Positions 5,365 through 50,870 of a stretch of 64,000 nucleotides of DNA are shown one piece after another. Source of the DNA: Rickettsia bellii RML369-C (GTDB lineage: Bacteria; Pseudomonadota; Alphaproteobacteria; Rickettsiales; Rickettsiaceae); NCBI RefSeq assembly GCF_000012385.1, contig NC_007940.1, forward strand, positions 248,001 through 312,000, read 5' to 3'. Under the pieces are notes generated by a model. That model did not search any database, was not told where the DNA came from, and was given only the letters and a program-made list of their open reading frames with translations. Every line of letters begins with the position of its first letter. Within the stretch, counting starts at the first letter, position 1. Made by a program: the position numbers and the translations under genes.

Positions 5365-6322
5365 TCAACTATGTTTTAAATTAAAAAGAAGAGATTTTAA
5401 TTTAGCATTAGCGATGACAATAATTTTACGCATTAAAGCGGTAAGAGCGACCATTTTCTTTTTACCATTGTTAATGAGTCGCTCATAAAAGAGTCTTAAA
5501 CCAGAAGTCTTGCTATTACGGGCTGACATAGCAGCAAGGAATAGTATAGGCTTGACTCCTGCTCTACCATGTCCTACCTTTCTATATCCTTGATATTTAC
5601 CACTATCATTAGCTTTTGGAGCAAGCCCTGCAAGAGAAGCAATCTGCCGTCTTGTTAACTTCCCTAACTCCGGTAATAATATTAATAACTCAAAAGCAAC
5701 TATATTACCAATGCCATTTATCTCTTTCAATATCTCATGCTTTGCTTTTAACAGCTGATCTGATGATATAATCACTTCTACCTGATTAGTAATCTCTGTA
5801 ATTTGATTACTTAAAACATCTATCATATTTATACAGCTATTTTTAACAAACTTATCTGTATTTGCTTGTTGTAATCTATTCTTTTCGGCAACTAACATTT
5901 GCTTTAAATCATTCCGTCTTTGTACTAACCGAAAATAATTGTATATTTTGTTTTGATTCAGGCTTAAATACTTCAAGCTTATCTGCTCGCTCCTTACCAT
6001 ATAATCCTAATGCTTTAGCATCTAACTTATCTGTTTTTGCACTATTACCATATGATCTGATAAAATTCTTTACCTTTCTTGCATCTGCTCTATGTACTAC
6101 ATAACCTCTTTCACATAAGCTATACAATAACTCTAGTTCATATCCGCCTGTTGTTTCAACTACAGTTAGAGAGTTTGCTAAAATATCCTTATTATCATTA
6201 ATAAATTCAAATATACCGGAACTTGTATTCTCATATTCTTTTGTATCTTTTATGCCCTCTATTCCTACTACAAAATTATATTTTCCTATATCAATTCCTA
6301 TATGTTTGTGATATTTTATCAT
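5365..6322 (-). pseudogene. IS110-family transposase, frameshifted copy
   Basis: The gene is split into an N-terminal part (5909-6322, with DEDD residues D11, E56, D98, D101) and a C-terminal part (through 5365, with the LAGLAPKANDSGKYQG serine region). Compared with the two intact copies there is one extra A in the run at 5932-5935 (gaaaataatt against gaaataatt), right after the codons for QLF. The first frame then ends after seven wrong residues. Slippage in a run of only four A is unlikely to restore much protein, so I call it a pseudogene. Confidence 0.9.
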
Positions 6323-6571
6323 ATGTACCTCGAGATTTTATATTGTTTAGGATTGTAATCGGGCGTGCTTATCGCATCCCTTCCAACTATTCAAACTTCT
6401 CGAGAGTCGGGCTATAGTACCTTGATGACTCCGGTCGTATAAAACCTACTATACCGTGACGGTCGCTTATGCCCGCTTAATACCCTATATCATTATATAG
6501 GGTATTAACACTCTCTTATAAATGTTTATATTACATTTATAACTTATATTATATCACTTTCTTTTCTTACA
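5366..6571 (-). mobile_element. IS110-family insertion sequence, copy 1 (decayed)
   Basis: Almost base-for-base equal to copies at 29650-30854 and 49596-50800. It is 1206 bp rather than 1205 because of one extra A that breaks the transposase. The right end abuts gtcAT of a palindromic element at 5364-5365. The left end abuts accgtggcttgc of the same class of element, but the AT present at that junction in the other two copies is missing here. There are no terminal inverted repeats, as usual for IS110. It is probably unable to move without a transposase from another copy. Confidence 0.9.
6327..6541 (-). ncRNA. Predicted bridge RNA of IS110 copy 1
   Basis: The same ~215-nt sequence as in copy 3 (49626-49840), here on the minus strand between the element's left end and the transposase start. 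The four guide segments are unchanged. The mobile-element logic is explained at copy 3. Exact ends are inferred from the TATAAT at 6548-6553 (minus strand) and from the transposase start. Confidence 0.6.
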
Positions 6572-24050: not shown

Positions 24051-25412
24051 TTATTTAACTTCCCCTTTTGTCTCTAGATTCTTATTAATAATTAACCCTG
24101 TAATTACATCATAAGCACGAGCAAATTGGTAATCTTTTTTGTATAATTCAGATAATTCGTTATCTTCTTGTTTGTTATTTTTATCTTTTGTTTCTTTTTT
24201 ACTATCTTTATTTTTGGATGAATTATCTTTTTCAACATCATTCTTTAAATAATTTTTTAAAGAACTTTCAGAAAAACGTTTATCTATTTTTTTAACTTCC
24301 GGATATTCTACTTTTGCTGGTTCAATTATAATATCAGGCTCTATACCATCTGCTTGAATAGAACGACCGCTTGGTGTGTAATATTTAGCGATAGTAAGTT
24401 TTACAGCTGCTCTTTGATTAATTTGAGTCAAAGCCTGAACTGAACCTTTACCAAAAGATTTAGTCCCAAGTATTATCGCTCTTTTATGATCTTGCAACGC
24501 TCCTGCTACTATTTCTGAAGCTGAAGCAGAATTACCGTTTATCAGGACTATCATAGGAACTTTTGGAGCTTTCAGTGAAAACTCATTTGCTTTGGTTTCA
24601 GTATCGATCAAGTTAGCTCTACCTTTTGTCGTTAATATTATACCGGAATCAATAAAGTAATCACTAACAGCAATTGCCTGTTCTAGTATACCTCCTGCAT
24701 TATTACGTATATCGAGAATAATACCTTTAATATCGTCTTTACTTTCAGATTTGAGCTTCTTTATTGCTGCTTTCAATTCAGAGATTGTTGATTCGTTAAA
24801 AGTAATAATACGTATATAAGCAATATTATTTTTTTCTAAATGTGCTTTTATTGGGTTCATTTTCACTATTTCACGAGTAAGCTCTATATCTTGTGGTTTC
24901 ACCTCATCGGCTTTTATAACTAGTAATTTAACTTTAGTCCCCGGCGTACCTCGCATTTCTTTCACGGCTTTGTTAGGACCAATTGTAGATACTAATTCGT
25001 TATTCACCCCGACTATGTAATCCCCTCCTTTTAGACCAGCTTTGAATGCAGGCAAATCATCAATAGGAGATATTATTTTTATAGCCCCGCTATCATACAT
25101 TATGGTAACTCCAATTCCGCCAAACTCACCTTTAGTAAATGTAAAAATATCTTCAAAATCCTCACCTGTGTAATAACCTGAATGCGGATCAAGCGAATTT
25201 AACATGCCGTTAATCGCTTCATCTATCATTTTTTGTTTATCTGGTATTTCTACGTATTCTTTTTCAACACGTTCAAATATTTCCTGAAATTGCTTATAAG
25301 CCTCTTCGTTTGTTATTTTATTTTCAGGCTCTTTTGTTTCTTCTTTAGTAGCGGCAAATACAGAAACAAAATTTATAGTAAAAAATAATGCTATAATTAA
25401 ACGTAAATACAT
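24051..25412 (-). CDS. ctpA: C-terminal processing protease (S41, CtpA/Prc family)
   Basis: A 453-residue exported serine protease with a Ser-Lys dyad. It has signal peptide 1-20 (MYLRLIIALFFTINFVSVFA), a PDZ domain at ~85-165 (GEFGGIGVTIMYDSGAIKI ... GLKGGDYIVGVNN), and the S41 core with LDIRNNAGGILEQA. The catalytic serine is in NGNSASASEIVAGAL and the lysine in TKSFGKGSVQ. The C-terminal ~60 residues are a Lys/Asp/Asn-rich tail. Such proteases trim periplasmic proteins with unstructured C-termini. An RPE lies on each side, so the gene is probably its own transcript. Confidence 0.93.
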   Translation of the reverse strand: MYLRLIIALFFTINFVSVFAATKEETKEPENKITNEEAYKQFQEIFERVEKEYVEIPDKQKMIDEAINGMLNSLDPHSGYYTGEDFEDIFTFTKGEFGGIGVTIMYDSGAIKIISPIDDLPAFKAGLKGGDYIVGVNNELVSTIGPNKAVKEMRGTPGTKVKLLVIKADEVKPQDIELTREIVKMNPIKAHLEKNNIAYIRIITFNESTISELKAAIKKLKSESKDDIKGIILDIRNNAGGILEQAIAVSDYFIDSGIILTTKGRANLIDTETKANEFSLKAPKVPMIVLINGNSASASEIVAGALQDHKRAIILGTKSFGKGSVQALTQINQRAAVKLTIAKYYTPSGRSIQADGIEPDIIIEPAKVEYPEVKKIDKRFSESSLKNYLKNDVEKDNSSKNKDSKKETKDKNNKQEDNELSELYKKDYQFARAYDVITGLIINKNLETKGEVK

Positions 25413-29648: not shown

Positions 29649-30605
29649 TCAACTATGTTTTAAATTAAAAAGAAGAGATTTTAATTTAGCATTAGCGATG
29701 ACAATAATTTTACGCATTAAAGCGGTAAGAGCGACCATTTTCTTTTTACCATTGTTAATGAGTCGCTCATAAAAGAGTCTTAAACCAGAAGTCTTGCTAT
29801 TACGGGCTGACATAGCAGCAAGGAATAGTATAGGCTTGACTCCTGCTCTACCATGTCCTACCTTTCTATATCCTTGATATTTACCACTATCATTAGCTTT
29901 TGGAGCAAGCCCTGCAAGAGAAGCAATCTGCCGTCTTGTTAACTTCCCTAACTCCGGTAATAATATTAATAACTCAAAAGCAACTATATTACCAATGCCA
30001 TTTATCTCTTTCAATATCTCATGCTTTGCTTTTAACAGCTGATCTGATGATATAATCACTTCTACCTGATTAGTAATCTCTGTAATTTGATTACTTAAAA
30101 CATCTATCATATTTATACAGCTATTTTTAACAAACTTATCTGTATTTGCTTGTTGTAATCTATTCTTTTCGGCAACTAACATTTGCTTTAAATCATTCCG
30201 TCTTTGTACTAACCGAAATAATTGTATATTTTGTTTTGATTCAGGCTTAAATACTTCAAGCTTATCTGCTCGCTCCTTACCATATAATCCTAATGCTTTA
30301 GCATCTAACTTATCTGTTTTTGCACTATTACCATATGATCTGATAAAATTCTTTACCTTTCTTGCATCTGCTCTATGTACTACATAACCTCTTTCACATA
30401 AGCTATACAATAACTCTAGTTCATATCCGCCTGTTGTTTCAACTACAGTTAGAGAGTTTGCTAAAATATCCTTATTATCATTAATAAATTCAAATATACC
30501 GGAACTTGTATTCTCATATTCTTTTGTATCTTTTATGCCCTCTATTCCTACTACAAAATTATATTTTCCTATATCAATTCCTATATGTTTGTGATATTTT
30601 ATCAT
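29649..30605 (-). CDS. IS110-family DEDD transposase, copy 2
   Basis: A 318-residue recombinase. The RuvC-like domain has D11 (IGIDIGKYN), E56 (VVETTGGYE), D98 and D101 (KTDKLDAKALG). A helical middle follows, and the C-terminal domain has NGIGNIVAFELL and the serine region APKANDSGKYQG with S240, the position of the catalytic serine in IS621. The stop codon TGA uses two bases of the element plus the A of the flanking AT, so the gene reaches the very end of the element. It is identical to copy 3 except for one residue (S35 here, F35 there). Confidence 0.95.
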   Translation of the reverse strand: MIKYHKHIGIDIGKYNFVVGIEGIKDTKEYENTSSGIFEFINDNKDILANSLTVVETTGGYELELLYSLCERGYVVHRADARKVKNFIRSYGNSAKTDKLDAKALGLYGKERADKLEVFKPESKQNIQLFRLVQRRNDLKQMLVAEKNRLQQANTDKFVKNSCINMIDVLSNQITEITNQVEVIISSDQLLKAKHEILKEINGIGNIVAFELLILLPELGKLTRRQIASLAGLAPKANDSGKYQGYRKVGHGRAGVKPILFLAAMSARNSKTSGLRLFYERLINNGKKKMVALTALMRKIIVIANAKLKSLLFNLKHS

Positions 30606-30854
30606 ATGTACCTCGAGATTTTATATTGTTTAGGATTGTAATCGGGCGTGCTTATCGCATCCCTTCCAACTATTCAAACTTCTCGAGAGTCGGGCTATAG
30701 TACCTTGATGACTCCGGTCGTATAAAACCTACTATACCGTGACGGTCGCTTACGCCCGCTTAATACCCTATATCATTATATAGGGTATTAACACTCTCTT
30801 ATAAATGTTTATATTACATTTATAACTTATATTATATCACTTTCTTTTCTTACA
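29650..30854 (-). mobile_element. IS110-family insertion sequence, copy 2 (intact)
   Basis: 1205 bp with no terminal inverted repeats. It is bordered at the right end by gtcAT (29645-29649) and at the left end by ATaccgtggcttgc (30855 on), so an AT dinucleotide is present at both junctions, as expected for the core of IS110 recombination. It carries an intact transposase and the bridge-RNA region. It sits between the RARP-1-like gene and popZ/tolC. Confidence 0.93.
30610..30824 (-). ncRNA. Predicted bridge RNA of IS110 copy 2
   Basis: The same sequence as in copy 3 except one base (c at 30751 where copies 1 and 3 have t, in the cgcttaygcccg stretch), which lies outside the guides. See copy 3 for the guide analysis. 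Ends are inferred. Confidence 0.62.
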
Positions 30855-36889: not shown

Positions 36890-37185
36890 CGTTGCATGGA
36901 TCATGGATCGGAAAAGTGTACAATGTCATTCCCGTATAGGCACATGAGTGTCAACTTAAGGAGTGATGTCATCTAGTTGCTTGTCCACGGGATCCAGAAA
37001 AAAAGCCTAAATACAACAAGTTTTTAAAATTAAAAGCTCGATTTTATCTCGCTTTATACTGGATCCCGTGGACAAGCAACTAGATGACACCGAACACATT
37101 TTTCGATCCATGCAACAATAATACTAGGACATGAATTGATCCTTAAGTTGACACCCATGTACCTACGCAGGAATGACATAAGCCG
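36890..37185. repeat. Nested rickettsial palindromes
   Basis: The inner element has exact 30-base arms at 36968-36997 and 37059-37088 (gtcatctagttgcttgtcca and onward). The outer element has 36-base imperfect arms at 36925-36960 (gtcattcccgtatagg ... caacttaag) and 37142-37177 (cttaagttgacac ... gcaggaatgac). The inner unit looks inserted into the centre of the outer. No gene is in this 354-bp gap. Confidence 0.9.
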
Positions 37186-49395: not shown

Positions 49396-49500
49396 TTAAA
49401 CCTCTCTAGCATTAATTTTATCATATAGCAAAAAGCAATAAGGTTTAGACATTAAATTTACGAGCGAGATGGTATTGTTGCGTAGATCATTCTCCTTCCT

Positions 49501-49593
49501 GTCATCCCGTGATTTATGAACTAGAGCCAGTTAATAATACTAATAAAATTAGTATTATTTATTATTTTCTGGATCTAGTTAGCAAGCCACGGT
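49501..49593. repeat. Rickettsial palindrome at the left end of IS110 copy 3
   Basis: gtcatcccgtgatttatgaa at the far end and ctagttagcaagccacggt at the IS junction, with an inner tactaataaaattagta hairpin. It equals the elements beside copies 1 and 2, apart from a few bases. Confidence 0.85.
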
Positions 49594-49619
49594 ATTGTAA
49601 GAAAAGAAAGTGATATAAT
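49591..49619 (+). promoter_or_regulatory. Junction promoter halves of the IS110 element
   Basis: A TATAAT is at 49614-49619. In the chromosome the -35 position reads GGTATT. If the ends join as ...agttg-AT-tgtaag..., the same position reads TTGATT with exactly 17 bp to TATAAT. The strong promoter would thus exist only in the excised circle and would drive the bridge RNA and transposase. Confidence 0.65.
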
Positions 49620-50800
49620 ATAAGTTATAAATGTAATATAAACATTTATAAGAGAGTGTTAATACCCTATATAATGATATAGGGTATTAAGCGGGCATAA
49701 GCGACCGTCACGGTATAGTAGGTTTTATACGACCGGAGTCATCAAGGTACTATAGCCCGACTCTCGAGAAGTTTGAATAGTTGGAAGGGATGCGATAAGC
49801 ACGCCCGATTACAATCCTAAACAATATAAAATCTCGAGGTACATATGATAAAATATCACAAACATATAGGAATTGATATAGGAAAATATAATTTTGTAGT
49901 AGGAATAGAGGGCATAAAAGATACAAAAGAATATGAGAATACAAGTTTCGGTATATTTGAATTTATTAATGATAATAAGGATATTTTAGCAAACTCTCTA
50001 ACTGTAGTTGAAACAACAGGCGGATATGAACTAGAGTTATTGTATAGCTTATGTGAAAGAGGTTATGTAGTACATAGAGCAGATGCAAGAAAGGTAAAGA
50101 ATTTTATCAGATCATATGGTAATAGTGCAAAAACAGATAAGTTAGATGCTAAAGCATTAGGATTATATGGTAAGGAGCGAGCAGATAAGCTTGAAGTATT
50201 TAAGCCTGAATCAAAACAAAATATACAATTATTTCGGTTAGTACAAAGACGGAATGATTTAAAGCAAATGTTAGTTGCCGAAAAGAATAGATTACAACAA
50301 GCAAATACAGATAAGTTTGTTAAAAATAGCTGTATAAATATGATAGATGTTTTAAGTAATCAAATTACAGAGATTACTAATCAGGTAGAAGTGATTATAT
50401 CATCAGATCAGCTGTTAAAAGCAAAGCATGAGATATTGAAAGAGATAAATGGCATTGGTAATATAGTTGCTTTTGAGTTATTAATATTATTACCGGAGTT
50501 AGGGAAGTTAACAAGACGGCAGATTGCTTCTCTTGCAGGGCTTGCTCCAAAAGCTAATGATAGTGGTAAATATCAAGGATATAGAAAGGTAGGACATGGT
50601 AGAGCAGGAGTCAAGCCTATACTATTCCTTGCTGCTATGTCAGCCCGTAATAGCAAGACTTCTGGTTTAAGACTCTTTTATGAGCGACTCATTAACAATG
50701 GTAAAAAGAAAATGGTCGCTCTTACCGCTTTAATGCGTAAAATTATTGTCATCGCTAATGCTAAATTAAAATCTCTTCTTTTTAATTTAAAACATAGTTG
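49596..50800 (+). mobile_element. IS110-family insertion sequence, copy 3 (intact)
   Basis: 1205 bp between AT dinucleotides at 49594-49595 and 50801-50802. It has a long non-coding left end (49596-49844) and practically no right end, as the transposase runs to the last base. The arrangement (long left end, short right end) is that of the IS110 group, whose bridge RNA is encoded upstream of the recombinase. It lies in opposite orientation to copies 1 and 2, so recombination between copies could invert the 20 kb or 44 kb between them. Confidence 0.93.
49626..49840 (+). ncRNA. Predicted bridge RNA of IS110 copy 3
   Basis: A structured ~215-nt region between the TATAAT and the transposase start. 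A 5' hairpin (accctata ... tatagggt, 49663-49686) is followed by a first loop with cacggtat (49709-49716) and gtcatc (49738-49743). The first equals the left half of the target plus core AT; the second is complementary to core plus right half (gatgac). A second loop has atagttg (49777-49783), equal to the element's right end, and ttacaat (49809-49815), complementary to core AT plus left end tgtaa. tatagta and tactata (49714-49720, 49748-49754) can close the first loop. Four guides fitting four expected sites is strong evidence. Confidence 0.75.
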
Positions 50801-50801
50801 A
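49845..50801 (+). CDS. IS110-family DEDD transposase, copy 3
   Basis: 318 residues, with the DEDD set D11, E56, D98, D101 and S240 in the C-terminal domain. It differs from copy 2 only by F35 for S35, next to a non-catalytic turn. It starts at ATG 49845, with GAGGTACAT just before (ribosome site gagg). Its stop TGA is completed by the A of the target AT at 50801. It would form an RNA-protein recombinase complex with the upstream bridge RNA. Confidence 0.95.
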   Translation: MIKYHKHIGIDIGKYNFVVGIEGIKDTKEYENTSFGIFEFINDNKDILANSLTVVETTGGYELELLYSLCERGYVVHRADARKVKNFIRSYGNSAKTDKLDAKALGLYGKERADKLEVFKPESKQNIQLFRLVQRRNDLKQMLVAEKNRLQQANTDKFVKNSCINMIDVLSNQITEITNQVEVIISSDQLLKAKHEILKEINGIGNIVAFELLILLPELGKLTRRQIASLAGLAPKANDSGKYQGYRKVGHGRAGVKPILFLAAMSARNSKTSGLRLFYERLINNGKKKMVALTALMRKIIVIANAKLKSLLFNLKHS

Positions 50802-50802
50802 T

Positions 50803-50870
50803 GACATTGAAAGTGCTTTTCGATCCACGCAACAATGCCCAAGCCTCACGCAGGAATGACATCAGAGCTA
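50803..50870. repeat. Rickettsial repeat at the right end of IS110 copy 3
   Basis: gacattgaaagtgcttttcg and atccacgcaacaatgcc, the same as the flank of copy 1 in inverted form, then a half-element ending in cgcaggaatgac. Confidence 0.7.

Follow-up and report, generated by a model that had tools for sequence, protein, structure and literature searches.

The window, which is the whole stretch of 64,000 nucleotides analysed here (bases 248001-312000 of a source genome of 1,522,076 bases in one contig), carries at 49596..50800 on the + strand an insertion sequence of 1205 nt between two AT cores. The element starts with TGTAAG... at 49596 and ends with ...CATAGTTG at 50800, and the core AT is found at 49594-49595 and again at 50801-50802. 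An earlier sequence-only reading of this DNA had the element boundaries right. The short core is common to the target and both junctions, with AT at both ends of the element; one other copy (L028) is without the left AT. Altogether 25 full-length copies of 1200-1206 nt were found in the genome.

The element encodes a DEDD recombinase of 318 aa (49845..50801, +). The protein contains the DEDD RuvC-like domain (PF01548, 8.6e-18) and the Transposase_20 domain (PF02371, 1.2e-12) with the conserved Ser of the IS110 family, and in sequence comparisons it matched the solved recombinases of IS621 (8wt6, 6.2e-23) and ISCro4 (2.3e-22). The gene reaches the very end of the element, where its TGA stop spans the end and takes the A of the core. 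The residues D11, E56, D98, D101 and S240 align with D, E, D, D and S of IS621, which we take to be the catalytic residues of that enzyme.

The left non-coding end (49596-49844, 249 nt) carries the RNA and the right non-coding end is about 0 nt long, which is the layout of the IS110 group. The IS1111 group was also considered and rejected, as the RNA sits in the left end and not in the right. Subterminal inverted repeats of 7-17 bp, as in IS1111, were searched for in the outer 60 nt, where all that turned up was one A-rich 7-mer, at unequal offsets, and two 6-mers. A scan of genome contigs returned one distant relative with 25% identity that was not used further. Rfam at its gathering thresholds gave no match within the element. 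Elsewhere in the window, Rfam matched WsnRNA46 (Wolbachia sRNA 46) at 36950-37107 with 72.8 bits and Rp_sR47 (Rickettsia sRNA47) over its full length at 24395-24710 with 256.8 bits.

The sequence-only reading had proposed that the left end encodes a bridge RNA, and had named four strings in it as guides. All four were found where it had put them: CACGGTAT at 49709-49716, GTCATC at 49738-49743, ATAGTTG at 49777-49783 and TTACAAT at 49809-49815. In the predicted RNA, the left target guide is CACGGUAU, 8 nt including the core (49709..49716, +), and the right target guide is GUCAU, 5 nt including the core (49738..49742, +); both covary with the respective flanks of related elements. The left donor guide AUAGUUG (49777..49783, +) equals the last 7 bases of the element, an end that recurs as ATAGTTG in the relatives, and the right donor guide UUACAAU (49809..49815, +) is complementary to the core AT followed by TGTAA. 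Both donor guides were invariant in 20 of 20 aligned RNAs. For a control, 200,000 first-order Markov sequences were modelled on the left end, with the second string scored as the 5-mer GTCAT. Singly, the strings occurred in 0.5%, 15%, 2.7% and 2.2% of these sequences, in the same order as above, and not one sequence had all four in order.

Two of the guides needed to be redrawn. For the right target guide, GTCAT holds as a 5-nt match that pairs with the core AT and GAC, whereas the sixth base of the proposed GTCATC has to be dropped: the C after GTCAT stays the same in all 20 aligned RNAs irrespective of their target, and the G with which it would pair at the right junction belongs to the element and not to the target. 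The left donor guide matches the element end over 7 bases as proposed, but does not include the core, since ATAGTTG is followed by GA and not by AT. The core is thus contained in the other three guide pairings only.

The fold of the RNA was examined in the left end itself and in an alignment. The left end folds with z = -3.8, and none of 200 shuffled sequences folded as well. Of 23 RNAs that were cut out, 20 entered the alignment. L003 and L013 were set aside for their lost bases, and L163 because it repeats L161. The consensus consists of two stem-loops with the target guides in the first and the donor guides in the second, in agreement with the two-loop structure that had been expected. The predicted RNA contains a 14-bp hairpin 5' of the guide loops (49659..49690, +), a target-binding stem-loop (49693..49758, +) with helices 1-3, each of which has one pair with changes on both sides, and a donor-binding stem-loop (49762..49839, +) with helices 4-7, where such changes occur in helices 4 and 7 only. 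There are two internal loops, the target loop first, with a guide on both sides of each, which is the architecture of a bridge RNA. In the consensus for the free RNA the donor guides partly pair together (helices 5-6), and the donor loop is not seen open.

Standard pairs fill 97.5% of the pair cells, compared with 35-45% when the partners were slid by 1-3 columns. Changes on both sides were counted in 36 cells versus 12.5 in shuffled alignments (0 of 500 as high), and the covariation score was likewise above all 500. Counted by pairs, changes on both sides were only weakly raised (7 versus 5.2, 19 of 500 as high), and the number of further pair types pointed in the contrary direction (17 versus 18.5, 481 of 500 as high). 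A covariance model was then built from 17 relatives outside this genome, and it found the RNA here with 97 bits, as the proposal of a bridge RNA would predict. The same model gave three hits in the window at 97-98 bits, and a recombinase gene stands next to each of them. The second copy has its predicted bridge RNA at 30611..30759 (-) and its recombinase at 29652-30605 (-), and the third has the RNA at 6328..6476 (-) and a broken recombinase gene at 5368-6322 (-). With 138 of 491 candidates scored, the genome gave at least 26 matches, every one of them next to a recombinase copy, and at least 3 of the other 22 genomes of the genus had at least one match each (138 candidates scored per genome). 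Taken together, the sequence analysis confirmed the stretch 49596-50800 as an IS110-group insertion sequence with a predicted two-loop bridge RNA in its left end.

The protein search gave 40 matched stretches, which we merged to 27 copies of the element in the genome, counting L001-L026 and, as one copy, the pair L027/L028; the remaining 12 are 3' fragments of copies with frameshifts that are already in this count. The flanks of the other copies were the obvious check of the proposed target, and they bore it out. The sequence CACGG[T/C]AT adjoins 24 of 26 left ends exactly; the other two are L017, with a single mismatch distant from the core, and L028, which is short of two bases. On the right, ATGAC adjoins 25 of 26 ends, the exception being L021. 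In the copy described here, the left half of the target (CACGGT) and the left core AT occupy 49588..49595 (+), and the right core AT with the right half of the target (GAC) occupies 50801..50805 (+). The left half belongs to the tip of a palindromic repeat, the rest of which extends on the left side over 49475..49587 (+). The BLAST similarity of many copies passes the left end to about 49470-49507, and this sequence is common to many insertion sites because the sites lie in the same repeat family.

The target repeat is probably the Rickettsia palindromic element (RPE). The tip CACGGNATGAC was found at 272 unoccupied sites in the genome, and a control with the reversed pattern found 0. The 8 other genomes of the genus that were searched have 50 to 550 such sites apiece, an abundance across the genus that is expected of the RPE. 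The description of the tip as present in dozens of copies therefore falls short for the tip as a whole, with its 272 free sites, and fits the variants that are used, which have T or C at the variable position (31 free, 25 occupied).

The repeat had further been described as a safe landing site. In 23 of 24 reconstructed empty sites, no ATG frame of at least 100 aa crosses the junction. Of 1000 positions drawn at random from the window, 83% do have such a frame, and the description was upheld in this respect. The remaining site has a frame of this size, and ATG frames of at least 60 aa span six of the 24. The element thus seems to land in palindromic repeats that are mostly outside genes. An adoption of the repeat for the sake of its safety would be one reading of these counts.

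The base next to the core differs strongly between free and occupied sites. Among the 272 free CACGGNATGAC sites there are 230 with G (CACGGGATGAC, obtained by subtraction), 31 with T or C (22 T, 9 C) and 11 with A. The 25 occupied left ends that could be scored have 17 T, 8 C, 0 G and 0 A (Fisher p = 3.7e-21). At this position, 17 of 25 full-length copies have U as the guide base and the other 8 have C. A guide U would allow a target T, where it pairs with A, and by wobble also a target C, where it pairs with G. This pairing is our inferred explanation for the T/C bias, by analogy with IS621, for which a comparable position with a tolerated rG:dT is described (PMC11208160).

A different origin of the bias is conceivable if the insertions are not independent. 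The element together with its repeat flank would then have been copied or converted by homologous recombination, and T and C would simply be the flanks of the founders. The copies are indeed not fully independent, as one 13-nt context, ATCTAGTTAGCAA, stands at 15 of the 25 scorable left ends and next to the tip in none of the 30 free T/C sites that were read (of 31). However, when each of the seven distinct left contexts was counted once, all of them had T or C, which at the free-site frequency has a probability of 2.5e-7. Each copy also has its own coordinate and the right flanks vary. We regard founder flanks as an unlikely explanation, and one that touches the site bias only and not the guides.

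Pairing by the guide as the cause of the bias has to accommodate the variation among the copies themselves. This is dense in the target loop (49714-49744) among the 25 full-length copies. The left target guide given above is present in most of them, but 8 of 25 (L003, L007, L010-L014, L024) carry another, CACGGCAT, which is three bases shorter, and to this extent the guide assignment of the sequence-only reading is incomplete. In 4 of these 8 copies one base has been lost in or beside the right target guide. The donor guides match the element ends, and neither the guides nor the ends vary in this clade. By eye, no association was found inside the genome between the guide allele (U or C) and the flank base (T or C): 6 of the 8 C-guide copies stand at T sites, which corresponds to a C-A mismatch. 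For these copies movement in trans or gene conversion is needed as an explanation, and movement in trans could account for them because all copies have the same donor guides.

Broken recombinase genes also recur among the copies. A one-base deletion late in the gene, at about 50598-50616, is common to 11 of 25 full-length copies, and 4 of these 11 have a two-base insertion near it. Movement in trans would explain the common deletion, with gene conversion as the alternative; the occurrence of the same breaks at different sites suggests one or the other. The broken genes could also mean that the element is a dead relic, which once used its bridge RNA and no longer moves, and further breaks in other copies are in line with this. 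Nevertheless, a full recombinase frame over residues 1-318 was found in 12 copies, and the copies are nearly identical save for the target loop and a few sites, which suggests a recent spread. We therefore consider a dead relic improbable, somewhat more so than founder flanks.

The decisive test followed guides and targets through related elements. These were sought in 85 genomes from the family and 343 from the order, came mostly from other Rickettsiales and had mostly 44-62% identity. Many of the relatives are present in several copies in genomes labelled f4/g37, which are probably Wolbachia; there the right ends are well over 100 nt long. The ends of the relatives (...CATAGTTG|AT and TTGTAAG...) are nearly the same as here, and their insertion sites are different. 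In the aligned left ends the donor guides are fixed and the target guides variable. A scan with the RNA signature gave 67 non-redundant rows, and the 62 with both flanks, comprising 16 guide types, were tested. The null distribution was obtained by permuting the flanks among the guide types. On the left, 4.56 of 7 non-core guide bases match the element's own flank, compared with 2.33 (sd 0.32) after permutation, and on the right 3.43 of 5 match, compared with 1.64 (sd 0.22); in both cases 0 of 10,000 permutations were as good. Without this genome (G000) and G061, which left 13 types in 41 rows, the values were 4.34 versus 2.59 on the left and 3.46 versus 1.65 on the right, again with 0 of 10,000.

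When the register was shifted, the signal on the right was gone. On the left a weaker signal remained at offset +1 (2.99 versus 2.12, 4 of 10,000 permutations as high), and offset -1 gave 2.60 versus 2.24 (435 of 10,000); the value at offset -2 was disregarded as an artefact of an empty slice. The fit is uneven among the elements. On the left, L173 and L174 fit poorly with 3/9 each, and the means for four multi-copy groups are no higher than 5.0-6.2 of 9. On the right, one group matches at 3.5 of 7. The first TTGTAA[AG] upstream served to place the left flanks. This puts L211, at the least, in the wrong position, and the flank of L027 is displaced by the two bases it has lost; both stand uncorrected.

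The test left out L025, L062, L063, L074 and L158 for lack of a right flank, rows identical in flanks and guides (for example L015 with L009), and the more distant IS110 groups. L003, L013, L014 and L024 of this genome were also left out, since the loss of a base from their target loop kept them from matching the pattern. The signature gave no rows in the distant IS110-like stretches L118-L136 and L138-L156 (from G040, G041, G047, G070, G071, G072, G077, G079, G080 and G082), which enter no count; eight of them, L145-L152, could not be oriented by tblastn.

These results agree with the bridge-RNA interpretation of the left end, as the target guides change with each element's flanks across the relatives and the donor guides stay constant. 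Recognition of the palindromic tip through protein-DNA contacts of the recombinase, with the left-end matches as by-products or chance, is highly improbable: although nearly all copies here have one target, so that protein and RNA specificity are inseparable within this genome, the targets of related recombinases differ while the element ends are nearly the same, the guide segments change along with the targets, and in none of the Markov sequences did all four strings stand in order.

Other genomes of the genus contain further relatives. In G061 a decayed relative has the guide CACGGGAT beside a flank with the same sequence, CACGGGAT, and ATGAC on the right. In G062 a left end was found with the guide TGTGAGCGT beside the flank AGTGAGCGT, matching at 8/9; a right end was looked for in this element and not found. 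The G062 stretch (L221, about 1394 onward) contains the bridge RNA and the element is interrupted right after the gene start, by what looks like a group II intron when the sequence is read. In G058 an IS110-like remnant of ~245 bp (L224, reverse complement, about 315-559) retains the two ends and the greater part of the bridge RNA, but no recombinase gene lies between the ends. Its right guide CTGGAT stands before the flank ATCCAG (6/6) and its left guide TGAAGCGAT beside the flank CGAAGCAAT (7/9).

The guide base next to the core may have been retuned in nature, being U or C here and G in another genome of the genus, so that lineages divide the variants of the host repeat among them. The U allele would read two variants by wobble, and copies with a broken recombinase would spread in trans via the same donor guides. 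We propose this tentatively and would sooner bet against it than for it, while rating it above either founder flanks or a dead relic.

Our interpretation is that the IS110-group element very probably moves by bridge-RNA-guided recombination at the RPE-like tip. Its boundaries, target, guides, RNA structure, covariation and site bias can be read from the sequences compared. The following steps, with the circle, the transcript, the RNA-protein complex and the strand exchange, are modelled on IS621. Excision would join the two ends of the element around an AT core. In the joined ends, TTG (50798-50800), the core AT and T49596 would form TTGATT at a 17-nt spacing from a TATAAT -10 box (49614..49619, +), and this predicted circle junction has 10/12 consensus positions versus 7/12 at the integrated end. 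The integrated left end was rejected as a weak promoter for this reason, and a general promoter scan of the integrated sequence found no + strand site at 49614-49619. The sigma-70-like junction promoter (TTGATT-17-TATAAT) would drive transcription of about 215 nt of the left end, giving an RNA to be held by the DEDD/Ser recombinase. The second loop of the RNA would pair with the joined ends (ATAGTTG, AT+TGTAA) and the first loop with CACGGYAT and GAC at the tip of the Rickettsia palindromic repeat, and the recombinase would exchange strands at AT. With U as the guide base next to the core in most copies, T and C targets would be accepted and the commoner G targets would not.

Such a targeting would help to explain how the element rose to 27 copies in a small genome with few gene hits. 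The genome can be regarded as a natural specificity experiment, in which hundreds of near-identical free sites differ by one base and insertions are confined to the bases with which a guide U pairs. As a natural record of specificity for one base it is unusually clean. The relatives add 16 natural guide types with nearly the same donor ends. A literature search for bridge RNA with IS110 and Rickettsia, or with Wolbachia, found no paper, which does not imply absence from print.

The same anatomy is described for IS621, an IS110-group element of E. coli (PMC11208160, PDB 8wt6). IS621 likewise targets host palindromic repeats, the REPs of E. coli, and the present element would extend bridge-RNA targeting of such repeats from there to the Rickettsiales. 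It differs in that its core is AT and that of IS621 is CT, its target is the tip of a rickettsial repeat, and it has almost no non-coding right end, the stop codon overlapping the end. Moreover, its left donor guide is without the core, which IS621 has in all four guide pairings, and it has two guide alleles in one genome.

The seekRNA elements ISEc21 and ISMch6 of the IS110 family are similar according to the account in PMC11187229, where the upstream non-coding region gives an RNA with matches to the two strands of the target, that to the bottom strand being placed 5' of that to the top strand. The target of ISEc21 is given there as IS3-family transposase genes, whereas here it is a palindromic repeat. 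Natural redirection with changes of the guide is reported for ISMch6 (PMC11187229); as described, it lies between two elements with different targets, whereas here it would concern variants of a single repeat. That IS110 elements occur in palindromic repeats has been known for long: copies of ISPa11, ISPpu9, ISPpu10 and ISRm19 sit in extragenic palindromic repeats as the element does here, in a description that was given before bridge RNAs were known (PMC1525189). In that paper, Rickettsia conorii is named as a genome without IS elements.
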